Below, in pieces: positions 17,978-28,191 of a stretch of 64,000 bases of DNA (position 1 is its first letter; every line of letters begins with the position of its first letter). Source of the stretch: Pedobacter sp. MR2016-24. Its GTDB lineage: Bacteria > Bacteroidota > Bacteroidia > Sphingobacteriales > Sphingobacteriaceae. The notes beneath the pieces were generated by a model. It ran no database searches and was not told the DNA's origin. It was given only the letters and a program-made list of their open reading frames with translations. The DNA lies in the NCBI RefSeq assembly GCF_026239655.1, contig NZ_JAPIVO010000008.1:62001-126000 (forward strand). Direction: 5' to 3'. Both the position numbers and the translations under genes were made by a program.

Positions 17978-18113
17978 TCTTTAAAACTTCTTGTCTTGGC
18001 CATATCTAATTTTTTATCTTAAACAAATGTAAATCATGTCTTTAAGAAAATAAAATATCAGGATGATCATGTGCATAATTGTCCCTTGGTATCCAAAATT
18101 GTCCGGATTAACG

Positions 18114-18266
18114 TTAGGGAATTCTTGGGGCAGCGTTAAGGTTAGTCTAGGGTACGAATAGGTTTAAACTAGGGTTAGTCCGGTTCAAATTCACTAGTTA
18201 AAAAGTACCGGACTCACCCTAGACTTACCCTAGAAGATCCCTAGTCTAGCCTTAAGCAGTCTATAG
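18114..18266. repeat. 11-bp-phased CTAGGGT repeats arranged as one dyad-symmetric array
   Basis: Forward units begin every 11 bases at 18114, 18125, 18136, 18147, 18158, 18169 and 18180 (TTAGGG, TTGGGG, TTAAGG, CTAGGG, ATAGGT, CTAGGG, CCGGTT). Inverted units lie at 18206, 18217, 18228, 18239, 18250 and 18261 (TACCGG, CCCTAG three times, CCTTAA, CTATAG), also every 11 bases. The best 11-mers converge on CTAGGGTNAGT. The two sets are mirror images about 18195.5. Inner arms 18169-18184 / 18207-18222 pair at 15 of 16 positions, and outer arms 18136-18152 / 18239-18255 pair at 15 of 17. A single strand could fold into a 120-nt imperfect hairpin with a 22-nt loop. Confidence 0.75.
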
Positions 18267-18430
18267 GCCTTCATACAGCAGAGAGGCACTTTAATAAGAT
18301 TTCCGGCTTCGAAAAAGAGTCCGGGAGCTGCTGAAAAATAATTAGAAAATCTGAGACGTTAAATTATCAATTCGAGTTATCCTTCCTTGTTAGGAAGTAC
18401 ATATAGGTCTAAATCAAATTCAATATTTAA

Positions 18431-18544
18431 TTACCGCAAAATTTTATTGTACTTAGATCCCAAGTGGACCCACGGAACACTTTCTCCATTATCAAAATAT
18501 ATAAATATTGCACAGGAAAGTTCACAAGCGCAGTCAATGGAAAA
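18431..18544 (-). pseudogene. possible 3' remnant of an unidentified gene
   Basis: A 37-codon minus-strand frame with no start codon ends in coding-like peptide FDNGESVPWVHLGSKYNKIL followed by Arg and a stop. The second half does not look random, but the first part is Cys-rich and preceded by a stop. I cannot name a family. Confidence 0.2.
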
Positions 18545-18658
18545 CTAAATGTGGTAAAGTATTTTTATTACGACAAATTTTGAGGGCTGTTTTATAATGG
18601 GTTATTTGTTGGGCCGGTTCTTCTCCGGCAGTAAAGCCTATAGGTGATGGGGCGAGGA

Positions 18659-19200
18659 TTATTTACCTTTGCGCATAAAGCCAATCTCTCTTCTTGGCTG
18701 CTCTTCCTTTTCAATGAATTTACTCAGATAAGTAAACAATACCTCTATTTTCTGATCCTGGTTAAGAAGCTTCTTTTCAACCTGCTCCACCAGCAATGAT
18801 ACGTCTTTATGAAGCAGTACCATTTCACGTATACGGGTATAGATACGAATGATCTGGATATTGACATGGATAGCTCTTTCACTGTTCAGTACACAAGACA
18901 ACATCGTCACTCCCTGTTCGGTGAAACAAAAAGGCATATATCACAATCCCTGACGATCTTCTTTGGAGGTCACATTTTGTGACCTCCAATTCTCCAGTTC
19001 TTCTTTAGTCATTTCAAACATAAAGTCTTCCGAAAACGGGCTATGTTACGCCGTACCGCCTGTTTTAAGACTTTAGTCTCTACGCCATATAGCTTAGCGA
19101 GATCCCTATCCAGCATTACCTTTTGATCCCGGATCATATAGATCTTACTCATGACAACCTCATCAGGTACAACGACATTCTCTAATGGACTCATAAGCAA
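18659..19200 (-). pseudogene. ORF6N domain gene broken by a frameshift and a nonsense codon
   Basis: The N-terminal part (from 19200 or a nearby ATG) has the ORF6N DNA-binding-like domain: [36 protein letters not shown]. At about 19030-19036 the expected phase is lost: TTTCGG stands where TTTCCGG would keep the frame ARFPEDFMFEM. Reading then continues in the shifted frame through TKEELENWRSQNVTS to a TGA at 18941-18943, placed where the family usually has Arg or Trp before YMPFCFTEQGV. The remaining 93 codons (18937-18659) contain the conserved TEQGVTMLSCVL segment and a coiled-coil C-terminus. Both lesions are simple one-base events, consistent with recent decay. ORF6N proteins are typical of phage-related or mobile DNA in Bacteroidota. 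Confidence 0.85.
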
Positions 19201-19242
19201 ATGTATCCAGATAGACTCTTATTGTGGTTAATTTTTTTTCAA

Positions 19243-23202: not shown

Positions 23203-26200
23203 TTGAATAAATACGTACGCAAAAGTTTAAAGGTTGTTTTGTGGGTCTTTGCCATCGTCATTATGCTGGTAGTAGCCATCGCCGTATCTTTAAACGTTCC
23301 GGCTGTTCAAAACTTCGTCAAAGGTAAAGCAATCAATTACCTGAAAAATAAAACCCATACTGAAGTCAGCCTCGAAAGTATTAAAATTGCGCTTCCAAAA
23401 GATGTAGTGCTGAACAAGTTTTATATGGCTGACAAAAAGGGTGATACCTTACTCTACGCACAAAAACTTTCAGTGGATATCAGCTTATTTAAGCTGCTTA
23501 AAAATACAGTAGAGATCAATAGTATTGAGCTGGAGAAATTAAGGGCAAATGTGACCAGGATTGATCCGGACACGACTTTTAACTATCAATTCCTGATTGA
23601 CGCATTCATGTCTGAGCAGAAAAAACCAGAGGATCAGGTAAAGAAAGATACAACTTCAACGATGAAGTTCTCGGTAAATAAAATCAGTCTTACGGATATT
23701 GGAATTGTATTCAGAGATGATGTAATTGGTAATGATGTAAATGTAAAATTGGGCGAATTTAAAACCAATATCAAGGACTTTGATATGGCCAATCAGCATT
23801 ATGTGATTAAGGATCTGATATTAAAGAATACTTCACTAAAGTATTTGCAGCAGAAGCCCCTCACAAAACTTGCTGCAGTAGTAGAAGAAAGTCTGGATAC
23901 CGCTAAGTCCGAAACAGGAAAATTACCATTAGTTGAAGTGCAGGATATCGCACTGAATAATGTGAAGATCAAGTATGATGATATGCTTTCTGATACAAGA
24001 GCAGATCTGGATGTGAATGAGTTAACGCTGACCAAACTTCTTGCTGATCTTACAAAAACTGATATTAAACTGGATGATGCGACACTGAAAAAATCCAACA
24101 TCCTGTTCGCATTCAAACCTGCCGCACCGGTAAAAGGAGCCGATACTGTAGCCACTACCAAACCATCGGCAATGGCTATACTGGTTGGTAAACTTAATCT
24201 TGCAGAAAACAATATACAGTTTGATAATCTGGGTGCCAAACCCACTCCAAAAGGAATGGACTTTAACCACCTTAAAATAAATAACCTGGGACTTGAAGCT
24301 GAAGCACTTTCATACAGTACGGCTGGCATTAAAGTAAACGTGAAAAGTGGAACACTAAAAGAAAAAAGTGGTTTCGAACTTTCAAAACTGCAGGGAGATG
24401 TGGTTTATAATGATAAAATGGTCAAAATTAATGACCTAATTTTTAAAACGCCCAATACAAATATTGAAAATAATACAGAGCTGAATTATACTTCGCTGGA
24501 AGATTTAACAAAACATCCTGAACGTGTGAAATTATCATTGCAGGTCAAAAACTCTGTTCTGGGCTTAAAAGATGCTACCTATTTCAGTGATGCCGTACCT
24601 GCGAATTATAAGAATGAAAAGATTAAGATCAACGCGAAAGTTAACGGCTACATGAATAACCTCGTGATCCCTCAATTGCAGATCAGCGGACTAAAGAGTA
24701 CAAATATAGATGTTACCGGTACAGTTAAGGGTTTGCCTGATGTAAATAAGACTTTCCTTGACCTGAACATCAAACGTTTCTCTTTATCTAAAGGAGATCT
24801 GTTGGTAGTCATCCCTAAAAAATCGCTGCCTGCAAATATAGAGCTACCTAACAGGATTGTAGCTAATGGTAAATTCAAAGGCTCAATGACCAATTTCAAT
24901 ACTGGTTTTAATATCAATACGGACATGGGATCGGCAAAATTGCTGGCTTCAATGAAAGGGCCTAAAGGAAAAGAAAGTTATACGGCAGATATCAACCTGA
25001 ATAATTTCAACGTGGGCAGGTTAATAAAAATGCAGCCCACTTTAGGAAGGATAACCGTTAAAGCGAAAGTTAACGGAACCGGACTGGATGCAAAAACGGC
25101 CAATGTCAAATTAAACGGACAGGTGGTAAGTGCCTATTATAATAAATATACTTACAGGAATTTAGTACTAAATGGAACTTATGCTGCTCAGAAATTAAAC
25201 CTGAAAAGTAATATGGCCGATAGCAATGCCAATTTCAACCTTACTGCTTTAGTAAACATGGCTGGCAAATATCCGGCAATAAAGGCTGACCTGAATTTGA
25301 AGCAGGTAAACCTGCAGCAACTGAATTTTAGTCCGACCCAACTTTCATTGGCTGGTCTGGTGAAAGCGGATATTAAAACTGCTGATCCTGATTACCTGAA
25401 CGGCGATGTGAGCATCAGGGGACTACAGGTAGTGAAAGATGGTCAGCGGATCAATGTGGATACAATAGATGTACATTCGGAAGCTGATGCAAATCATAAC
25501 CTGATTAGCCTGAAATCTGAGATACTGAGTGCAAGGGTGGATGGTAAATATCAACTGACTAACCTGGCTGCAGCAATGATCAACCAGATCAATAAGTATT
25601 ATGCCTTTGGCGTGGTTACTAAAATCCCCGAGCAGCGATTCAGGTTCAGCATGAATATTTACAATAGTAAACTACTCAAGCAGTTTGTGCCGACATTAAC
25701 TACCTTCTCTCCTTCACGGATCAGCGGTTTGCTGGACACGCAAAAGGACAGCCTGATCATGAATGCATGGTTCCCTCAGGTAGTTTATGGCGATTATAAG
25801 GTAGACAGCACGAAGTTAACCGTTGATAATGCTAACCAGCAGCTGAATTATAAGTTACTGGTAGGACATGTACAGAGTCCTTCACTGGCCTTGTACAATA
25901 CAGAGTTAAGCGGCCAGGCAGATAATAATGTGCTTGGCGTGAACATCTTTTTGAGGGACAGCAAGCTGAAAGACAAATATATGCTTGGAGGTACTTTCAA
26001 ATCAATGGATAAAAATTTCCGCTTCAGTTTTGACCCGAATAAGTTATTGCTGGACTACGAGAAATGGGCGGTATCACCAGAAAATTATATACAGTTTGGT
26101 GCTTCAGGCATCCTGGCCAATCAGTTTAACCTGAGTAAGGACAACCAGTTACTGAGCATCAATAGTTTGAATGCTACACCTAACTCCCCGCTCAAAGTAG

Positions 26201-28191
26201 AGTTTAAAGATTTCAGAATAGAAACACTGACTAAGTTTGCAGCGCAGGACAGTGCTTTAGTAGGCGGAGTAATTAACGGTACAGTGGATGTAAAAGAATT
26301 AATGACCAGTCCTAAATTTGAAGCGAACATGACTGTCGACCGGTTGCGTTACCAGAAAGATCAGCTGGGCACTTTACGTATAGCGGTGAATAATAATACT
26401 GCAGACGCCTTTGAAACTAATATTGCTTTAACCGGCGTTCATGAATTAAGGGTAAATGGCTTTTATTATACGAAGAGAGAAAGTGCTTTGGACTTAAAGG
26501 TGAATATAGATAAAATCGACATGAAATCACTGGAAAGTGTTTCTATGGGACAGATCAAACAGGGTTCTGGAACCGTAACTGGTCAGCTGACAGTTACCGG
26601 GGCAGTAGCGAAGCCTAAAGTATTGGGAGATGTGAAATTTAACCAGGTAGCTTTTAATGCAACCTATGTAAACTCTTATTTAAGAATGCCAAATGAAACA
26701 ATCAGCTTTACGGATCAGGGCGTAAATTTCAACAACTTTACGATAATTGATTCACTCAATAAAAGGGCGACAATCAACGGCGGCATCTTAACTACTGACT
26801 ATACGAACTTTAAGTTCAATATGGACATTAAGACAAATAATTTCAGGGCGTTAAACTCTACCTCCGCGGATAATGAGTTGATTTATGGTACCGTATTCCT
26901 GACTAGTAATATTAAGGTCAGGGGTGATATGAATCAGCCTGATGTAAACATGACGGTTAAGGTAGAAAAAGGAACCAAGTTCTTTTTTGCAATGCCAACT
27001 GCCGATCCTTCTGTAATAGATCAGGAAGGTATTGTACAATATATTGATGCTGATGTGGCTCCTTATAACGGACAAAAAGCGCTGAAGGCAGACAGTATAA
27101 ATAAAGCACCTATCAAGGGAATTAACCTTACCGCAGATATTGAAGTCGATCCTGAAGCAGAGCTGAATGTGGTAATCGATCCGGCTAACGGAGATGCATT
27201 GAAGGTTAGAGGAGATGCAGACTTAACAGCAACAATGGATCCTAGTGGTAAAATAAGCATGACAGGCCGATATGAAATCAATGACGGTTCTTTCGGCATT
27301 TCGGTCAGTGCTTTGGGTAAAAAAGAATTTAAATTAGTTAAAGGAAGTACTATCGTTTGGACCGGTGATCCAATGTCTGCTAATGTGAACCTTTCAGCAG
27401 TATACGAAGTAAATGCAGCACCAATAGATTTGCTTAATAGAGAGGATCTGCCTTCATTAAAAACCAAAGTACCCGTTCAGGTTTATCTGATCATGAAAGG
27501 TGAATTGATGAAACCAATTATTTCATTCAGACTGGACTTACCAGAAAATGAACGTGGAGCTGGTGATGGCTTGGTATATCCTAAAATGTTACAGGTAAAC
27601 AGAGATGAGAATGAGTTGAATAAACAAGTATTCTCCTTGCTGGCACTGAACAGGTTTATGGCAAGTAATCCATTCCAGAGTCTTGCCGGAGGTGGTGGCG
27701 GAGTATCTACCCTGGCACGTTCAAGTGTAAGTAAATTATTAACAGAACAGTTAAATAACCTGGCGTCAGATCTGATTCAGGGTGTAGATATTAATTTTGG
27801 AGTGAATACTTCTGAAGATTATTCTACCGGCTCTCTGCAACAAAAAACTGATCTTGAGGTAGGTTTATCAAAAAAACTGCTTAACGACAGACTAACGGTA
27901 ACGGTGGGTAGTTCATTCGGACTTGAAGGACCACAACCACAAGGTCAGAGTTCCAGTAATATTGCAGGAAATGTAAATGTAGAATATGCAATGTCTGCTG
28001 ATGGCAGATACCGATTACGGGCTTATCGCCGTAACCAGAATGAAGGAGTGGTAGAAGGCCAGATTATTGAAACCGGATTAGGTTTTGCACTGGTAGTGGA
28101 TTACAACAAGTTCAGAGAAATATTCCAGAAAAAAAGAAATAGAAACAAATCAAAAACAGAACAGAAGCCCAAAAATGAAAAATCTAATTAA
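23203..28191 (+). CDS. tamB: TamB-like translocation and assembly module protein
   Basis: 1662 aa, starting at TTG. One N-terminal membrane anchor (VVLWVFAIVIMLVVAIAVSL) is followed by a very long beta-helical periplasmic body in which short AsmA/TamB-like repeats recur. The C-terminal DUF490/TamB domain begins around residue 1300 (KGINLTADIEVDPEAELNVV) and includes RGDADLTATMDPSGKISMTG. TamB proteins span the periplasm and are implicated in phospholipid transport and outer-membrane assembly. The reading frame overlaps tamL by 17 bases, consistent with a working pair. Confidence 0.92.
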   Translation: MNKYVRKSLKVVLWVFAIVIMLVVAIAVSLNVPAVQNFVKGKAINYLKNKTHTEVSLESIKIALPKDVVLNKFYMADKKGDTLLYAQKLSVDISLFKLLKNTVEINSIELEKLRANVTRIDPDTTFNYQFLIDAFMSEQKKPEDQVKKDTTSTMKFSVNKISLTDIGIVFRDDVIGNDVNVKLGEFKTNIKDFDMANQHYVIKDLILKNTSLKYLQQKPLTKLAAVVEESLDTAKSETGKLPLVEVQDIALNNVKIKYDDMLSDTRADLDVNELTLTKLLADLTKTDIKLDDATLKKSNILFAFKPAAPVKGADTVATTKPSAMAILVGKLNLAENNIQFDNLGAKPTPKGMDFNHLKINNLGLEAEALSYSTAGIKVNVKSGTLKEKSGFELSKLQGDVVYNDKMVKINDLIFKTPNTNIENNTELNYTSLEDLTKHPERVKLSLQVKNSVLGLKDATYFSDAVPANYKNEKIKINAKVNGYMNNLVIPQLQISGLKSTNIDVTGTVKGLPDVNKTFLDLNIKRFSLSKGDLLVVIPKKSLPANIELPNRIVANGKFKGSMTNFNTGFNINTDMGSAKLLASMKGPKGKESYTADINLNNFNVGRLIKMQPTLGRITVKAKVNGTGLDAKTANVKLNGQVVSAYYNKYTYRNLVLNGTYAAQKLNLKSNMADSNANFNLTALVNMAGKYPAIKADLNLKQVNLQQLNFSPTQLSLAGLVKADIKTADPDYLNGDVSIRGLQVVKDGQRINVDTIDVHSEADANHNLISLKSEILSARVDGKYQLTNLAAAMINQINKYYAFGVVTKIPEQRFRFSMNIYNSKLLKQFVPTLTTFSPSRISGLLDTQKDSLIMNAWFPQVVYGDYKVDSTKLTVDNANQQLNYKLLVGHVQSPSLALYNTELSGQADNNVLGVNIFLRDSKLKDKYMLGGTFKSMDKNFRFSFDPNKLLLDYEKWAVSPENYIQFGASGILANQFNLSKDNQLLSINSLNATPNSPLKVEFKDFRIETLTKFAAQDSALVGGVINGTVDVKELMTSPKFEANMTVDRLRYQKDQLGTLRIAVNNNTADAFETNIALTGVHELRVNGFYYTKRESALDLKVNIDKIDMKSLESVSMGQIKQGSGTVTGQLTVTGAVAKPKVLGDVKFNQVAFNATYVNSYLRMPNETISFTDQGVNFNNFTIIDSLNKRATINGGILTTDYTNFKFNMDIKTNNFRALNSTSADNELIYGTVFLTSNIKVRGDMNQPDVNMTVKVEKGTKFFFAMPTADPSVIDQEGIVQYIDADVAPYNGQKALKADSINKAPIKGINLTADIEVDPEAELNVVIDPANGDALKVRGDADLTATMDPSGKISMTGRYEINDGSFGISVSALGKKEFKLVKGSTIVWTGDPMSANVNLSAVYEVNAAPIDLLNREDLPSLKTKVPVQVYLIMKGELMKPIISFRLDLPENERGAGDGLVYPKMLQVNRDENELNKQVFSLLALNRFMASNPFQSLAGGGGGVSTLARSSVSKLLTEQLNNLASDLIQGVDINFGVNTSEDYSTGSLQQKTDLEVGLSKKLLNDRLTVTVGSSFGLEGPQPQGQSSSNIAGNVNVEYAMSADGRYRLRAYRRNQNEGVVEGQIIETGLGFALVVDYNKFREIFQKKRNRNKSKTEQKPKNEKSN

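Follow-up and report, generated by a model that had tools for sequence, protein, structure and literature searches.

The array of 11-bp units at positions 18114 to 18266 of the window, the whole 64,000-nucleotide stretch of Pedobacter sp. MR2016-24 DNA that was analysed, has about an even chance of being a recognition element that once stood upstream of the gene in a small cassette, the gene itself having been deleted at this site. The proposed cassette type would combine a DNA dyad of about 150 bp, built of 11-bp units, with a promoter and a single F1/DUF6266-superfamily gene. A protein would most likely bind one unit per helical turn and multimerise head-to-tail within the arms, with a head-to-head contact at the centre, and the bound array would control the downstream promoter. 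In related bacteria, elements with this geometry and different letters were found before most members of a little-studied protein family, which points to an undescribed form of gene marking or control.

Structure of the window array

The core of the array spans 18136..18255 and is composed of two 60-bp arms of 11-bp units, as supported by mirror pairs, a table of units, and folding z scores. It was assigned to the minus strand, which is that of the presumed lost gene, and weaker outlying units reach 18114 and 18266. The steps of exactly 11 bases and the dyad centre at 18195.5 described in the original prediction are both present, with a CTAG (18194..18197, no strand assigned) at the centre of symmetry. 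Watson-Crick mirror pairs were formed at 43 of the first 60 positions from the centre and at 7 of the next 25. Seven forward and six inverted copies had been claimed; the array stands, but when a unit was counted only if at least 4 of its 7 core letters matched, the number fell to six forward units (starts 18114-18169) and five inverted units (cores 18216-18266). Folding of the plus strand of 18080-18300 gave -77.1 kcal/mol (z -5.6), which none of 200 dinucleotide shuffles equalled, and the minus strand also folded better than its shuffles (z -3.7).

The 11-base periodicity of the array (0.489 over 88 bases) exceeded the maximum of 0.466 obtained in Markov simulations (20 x 64 kb), yet by itself it was only moderately exceptional within the window. 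The case for the array is instead made by period and dyad combined, together with the recurrence of such arrays elsewhere, and on these joint grounds the claim that it exceeds chance was upheld. Near the end of a large ORF (23203-28191), a second 11-base periodicity (0.50 over 88 bases) was observed at 28076-28163.

An apparent gene stub at the window locus and an empty site in relatives

Read along the minus strand, the array is followed by GGACA-type 15-mers, a TACATTTG box, an ATG at 18003, a few codons, and the end of the HupE gene, which was assigned by its Pfam match. The two GGACAATTATGGACA-like 15-mers (18070..18104, minus strand; 1 and 2 mismatches) lie 20 bp apart between the array and the promoter-like box, and by eye a motif similar to the GGACAATTATGGACA 15-mers was seen at L047, L056, L058, and L060. 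The consensus of the Bacteroidetes -7-type box is TAnnTTTG; the box of this type at 18024..18031 on the minus strand begins 28 bases 5' of the ATG. The ATG and first codons (17978..18003, minus strand), which enter the end of the HupE gene, are presumed to be the start of the lost gene, with a likeness to family gene starts that is short and was judged by eye.

The array, promoter-like box, stub, and remnant of an ORF6N gene are all contained in a 1265-base segment (17978..19242, no strand assigned) that is missing in six relatives. In 6 of the 11 relatives examined (L254-L257, L260, and L261) the HupE gene lies directly next to the topoisomerase IV A gene, and the 1265 bases are therefore extra in the window; in the remaining five, HupE has a different neighbour. 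The ORF6N-domain gene (18659..19200, minus strand) is broken into open pieces at 18659-18937 and 19009-19200, only the second of which matches Pfam, and is thus dead as had been proposed. It appears to be a mere neighbour: beyond copies of this site, an ORF6N match was found only at L107 among the loci fetched for this comparison, and the association was rejected as seemingly coincidental.

The original prediction also held that no gene explains the array, which might be a decaying or boundary array. The first of these views no longer fits, as the array appears to be tied to a gene family whose local member was deleted, and a stand-alone boundary array without a gene found no support. The window array looked unexplained because its presumed own gene is gone, and it resembles a left-over control element of that gene.

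Copies of the array letters

One further copy of the array was found in the genome (C12:574012-574136; 118 bp at 92%). By eye, it likewise precedes GGACA repeats and then an apparent gene stub, so that promoter-like DNA and an apparent stub follow both copies. A blastn search of 144 other congeners returned just two 29-bp matches, in G141 and G149 (E 0.007), which by eye sit at a gene start. A literal-sequence search of plasmids for the array letters gave no match. Eight viral contigs matched a 15-base pattern of the array, which was taken as chance. The search for the motif in other genomes that had been suggested as a check is misleading in its literal form, because the letters are nearly absent elsewhere whereas arrays of this architecture are common in different letters. 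A search with the GGACA motif led to intact genes of similar layout, one of which (L047) lies behind a different 11-bp array.

Gene families behind the arrays

The protein of L047 belongs to a family designated F1, whose members are about 256 aa long and are without a Pfam family. The MR2016-24 genome encodes five more full-length F1 paralogs that are 29-36% identical to L047, and a seventh match is a fragment at a contig end. The top upstream period was 11 at all six full-length genes. Among the matches listed, F1 loci comprised 6 from this genome, 29 collected automatically, and 80 fetched, with 3 more that duplicate others; the 101 that are non-duplicate include a few broken or partial genes. 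Within 700 bases upstream of these Pedobacter genes, 11 was the strongest period at 85/101 loci, compared to 5/101 downstream and 3/101 after shuffling. A joint period-and-dyad score of at least 41 was reached at 80/101 F1 loci and at 1/100 downstream controls; 14 of the 80 arrays above this cut have a CTAG no more than 8 bases from their centre. Period 11 was on top in 13/14 distant relatives (L153-L166) upstream and in 0/14 downstream, and in 3 of 38 unrelated large ORFs of the window.

Two related families gave lower proportions. At curated DUF6266 loci (28 of the 29 listed; L176, under the cut-off, was omitted), period 11 was on top upstream of 14/28, downstream of 2/28, and in 1 shuffled sequence. 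The MR2016-24 genome has 19 DUF6266 matches, of which 11 had period 11 on top; among the other eight, L170, L179, L190, and L193 stand second behind a family gene, and L195 looks like the latter part of a reading frame split in two, with L180 as its beginning. DUF6266 genes of this genome were often seen in second place behind another family gene, the second being without an array of its own. For the F3 loci, which are mostly extra-generic, the counts were 18/49 upstream, 5/49 downstream, and 2 shuffled, and the upstream count was 17/49 and 20/49 with windows of 44 and 66 bases. This set comprised all listed loci that were long enough, distant ones included, after three short loci were dropped. 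Period 11 was thus not on top at 16/101 F1, 14/28 DUF6266, and 31/49 F3 loci.

F1 and F3 are homologous over nearly their full length (hhalign 99.6%, E 2e-23), and profile comparison related an N-terminal part of F1 to DUF6266 (95%, E 4e-8); in Pfam, F1 proteins did not match DUF6266 (PF19781). The occurrence of these families is patchy. F1 was found in 74/144 genomes drawn from the genus, and, in genomes of the class, DUF6266 was present in 10/149 and the F3 query matched in 27/198.

Anatomy of the arrays across loci

Across loci, the geometry is constant (11-bp steps within a dyad of about 150 bp) and the unit letters vary. In 74 centre-aligned arrays, whose centres were chosen partly on pairing within the inner 22 bp, mirror pairing was 0.72-0.75 over those 22 bp, about 0.5 out to 65 bp in a fixed register, 0.41 at 66-76 bp, and at the background of about 0.3 further out. 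Clear 11-bp repetition stopped between 44 and 54 bp. For this profile and for the register, mismatch, and strand-folding analyses, arrays above score cuts were used, some of them from DUF6266 loci, and 13 duplicate or close-relative loci were removed by hand. A test of the mirror register on 47 arrays was ambiguous (mirror 0.534 vs 0.524 for a shift of -22), and a second on 59 arrays, which was unbalanced by the array ends, gave 40 wins and 18 losses. In a balanced test, the mirror register won over other 11-bp registers in 66/74 arrays, an excess that comes mainly from the outermost unit, the centres having been pre-selected partly on inner pairing. The mirror register thus wins mostly through the outermost unit, and the symmetry therefore exceeds what shared units alone would give. 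Left arms appeared more regular than right arms under a centre-choosing score that weighted the left arm more. By eye, an AGTCC(A/G) core is common to many F1 arrays, so the private character of the units is a matter of degree.

The arrays fall into two layouts. In class 1 (25 loci), to which the window array conforms, more than 150 bp separate the centre from the ATG, and CTAG and GGACA repeats are present at some of the loci. A -7-type box lies between array and gene in 12/25 of these (shuffle mean 2.3, maximum 7), and 11/14 TAnnTTYG matches fall at -28 to -36. In several class-1 loci, GGACAnnnnnGGACA repeats in 10-bp steps, as at 18070-18104 of the window, recur between array and promoter and look like a common, non-private site. 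Class 2 comprises 67 loci with a centre nearer the ATG, mostly at about 95-125 bp, and a canonical -7 box was found in 9/67 against a shuffle mean of 6.3; these arrays may be transcribed, because no canonical box stands behind them. At L172, a DUF6266 locus of another genus with a gene from 2118 on the minus strand, about five near-perfect repeats of a AACTATATGCT-type 11-bp unit lie upstream with little inverted half.

In 46/48 close pairs, which are not independent and include an L080 array that contains an N run, the array was conserved above the gene-distal flank. Over the stretch that separates it from the gene, the array had no consistent advantage in conservation.

Unit letters follow the protein lineage

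By eye, substitutions are common to the units within an array and to both of its arms (e.g. L101, L079, L094, and L123). Across 78 loci, unit similarity tracked protein identity (Mantel rho 0.23, 0/500 permutations), with a similarity of 0.29 below 30% protein identity that rose to 0.5-0.7 above 40%. This correlation is modest, and common descent alone could give part or all of it. Protein stretches 41-90 and 101-150 tracked the units slightly better than the remainder of the protein, at a strength too weak to use (partial rho 0.11-0.15). Since the letters change together across the units of an array and track the protein lineage, the most likely binder would be the product of the downstream gene or a partner that is inherited alongside it.

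A wider reading is possible but doubtful: that these are self-recognising one-gene cassettes, patchy in Bacteroidia, in which each F1/DUF6266-superfamily protein reads its own 11-bp code, so that paralogs are independent and cassettes disperse through chromosomes. If so, the six F1 genes and 19 DUF6266 matches of the MR2016-24 genome would stay mutually independent. If each protein reads its own array, a single fold would be available in many independent specificities, and there would be a first way into the function of DUF6266 and related families. In any case, loci that combine a fixed geometry with varying letters passed on with the gene are natural candidates for matched protein-site pairs. 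Should the operator reading alone prove right, the arrays would represent a novel version of a familiar operator type.

Alternative explanations

The original prediction had offered either a cooperative protein-binding array or a folded element such as a hairpin RNA; cooperative binding is now the best supported of these, and the RNA form drew no support from the mismatch and strand analyses. That the array acts as a transcribed hairpin, bound by an RNA-binding protein that is perhaps the gene product, is unlikely. One turn of an A-form helix is 11 bp, which matches the step exactly, and each unit would therefore face such a protein alike. The arrays fold well (over 74 arrays, the mean z was about -5 for each strand, with 51 and 52 arrays under -3), T-runs and A-runs around many centres are complementary, the mirror register is the best in most arrays, and in class 2 no canonical promoter box separates the array from its gene. 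If such a stem worked as RNA, however, one strand should accept G.U more readily than A.C, and the mirror-position mismatches were not biased towards G.T (297 vs 307 A.C among 3256). A wobble-paired stem had been suspected from right arms with GGATTTA for GGACTTA, to which this full count gave no support. Raw folding energy slightly favoured the gene-antisense strand (p = 0.04; 46 arrays vs 27), an asymmetry that was gone after shuffle correction (p = 0.52). The promoter-like box of class 1 sits between array and gene, and a search of Rfam with the window array stretch gave only sub-threshold microRNA matches that fell far short of the cut-off (best score 25.7 bits, cut-off 80 bits). On the mismatch and strand tests, a DNA dyad is favoured over an RNA hairpin. 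Among DNA readings, we consider it very unlikely that the arrays are operators of an ordinary regulator shared within each genome. Regulators of the OmpR/PhoB type bind head-to-tail. The PHO box of Streptomyces, as outlined in one report (PMC9019756), likewise consists of 11-bp direct repeats upstream of genes and is bound by a response regulator, and such repeats upstream of a gene are present here. The arrays differ from these operators in their two inverted arms, dyad of about 150 bp, locus-varying units, and attachment to one gene superfamily. A shared regulator would impose one consensus per genome, and recent duplicates do carry similar units: above 60% protein identity, units were closer within a genome (9 pairs; 0.86 vs 0.63 and 0.81 vs 0.45), the pattern expected of recent duplicates. 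Below 60%, the units of paralogs were not clearly closer than those of other pairs (48 same-genome pairs), with a similarity of 0.27 (19 same-genome pairs) vs 0.35 at 30-35% identity and 0.43 (14 same-genome pairs) vs 0.39 at 35-40%. These values count against a single regulator for each genome and in favour of a binder that is co-inherited with the gene. The six full-length F1 genes of MR2016-24 have about five different units by eye, the similar proteins L048 and L049 having similar ones; the AGTCC core that many F1 arrays share leaves some doubt.

That the dyad instead serves as the end by which a mobile one-gene cassette is recognised, with every cassette reading its own, is decidedly unlikely. 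In 7/9 same-genome pairs, the gene and the array centre fall within a single block of 0.9-1.5 kb (74-91% identity) with a left edge 46-170 bp from the array centre, and the fetched flanks are without a match except for one further downstream match in L065/L090. The empty site in 6/11 relatives also fits dispersal, as does the G(T/C)AACTG seen by eye at the right boundary of three G114 cassettes (L126, L133, and L139), whose flanks are unrelated. Against this, no transposase or integrase domain was recognised by Pfam in the family proteins, the array stands on a single side of the gene, and no clear target-site duplication was seen by eye. A shared array was missing in 2/9 pairs (L065/L090 match in the gene and not at the array centre, L087/L055 only in short pieces), and any recombination route could spread such blocks. 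That the arrays are a functionless by-product of slippage and palindrome formation at a mutational hot spot is extremely improbable. Units are homogenised within an array, and L172 and L241 have near-pure direct repeats, as slippage would produce; however, the period, position, and gene association recur across genera, and the array is conserved above the distal flank in nearly all close pairs.

Comparison with other repeat systems

To our knowledge, the array-plus-gene system as a whole matches no known one. REP/RAYT systems are chromosomal palindromes matched to a single cognate gene, and the arrays are like them in being chromosomal and paired with one gene. They differ in their 11-bp units and in having few free copies (one more in the genome and two 29-bp congener matches), and, unlike REP/RAYT, no Y1 transposase domain was found by Pfam in F1 proteins. 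Type III toxin-antitoxin loci have tandem repeats of about 35 nt directly upstream of one gene; the arrays share the placement of tandem repeats 5' of a single gene and differ in their 11-bp units arranged in a dyad. A defence-model search with 8 proteins gave one weak match only (E 0.03). At integron attC sites one folded strand is preferred and an integrase acts as partner; between the strands of the arrays, no asymmetry was seen after shuffle correction. The pMV158 double-strand origin, as described in one account (PMC9943647), comprises the RepB bind locus, in which an 11-bp direct repeat occurs three times at a spacing of one turn, and the nic hairpin at a distance of 84 bp. The arrays resemble it in having 11-bp direct repeats, but they are chromosomal, have more units, and form a continuous dyad; unlike at a rolling-circle origin, no replication initiator family was found by Pfam in F1 proteins. 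A literature search for DUF6266/PF19781 by name or accession, largely without subscription papers, yielded no description, and one on repeats of 11 bp or families of palindromes in Pedobacter, Bacteroidetes, Flavobacterium, and Sphingobacteriaceae yielded nothing relevant.

Features of the family proteins

No DNA-binding domain was recognised by Pfam in the family proteins. An AlphaFold model built from three sequences was poor (pLDDT 47.8), and a PDB profile search returned designed helical-repeat proteins over about 39 residues (best E 0.0004), which was uninformative. When a single protein each of F3, F1, and DUF6266 was used as query, phages gave no match and plasmids gave one record, for F3; four queries found no relative of the family proteins in viral contigs. 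Several G047 proteins have long C-terminal tails, some of them coiled-coil-like, and by eye L108, L116, and L136, all from one genome, have an HTH-like C-terminal tail. In the F1 proteins L104 and L110, the C-terminal part is a fused DUF1398 domain.
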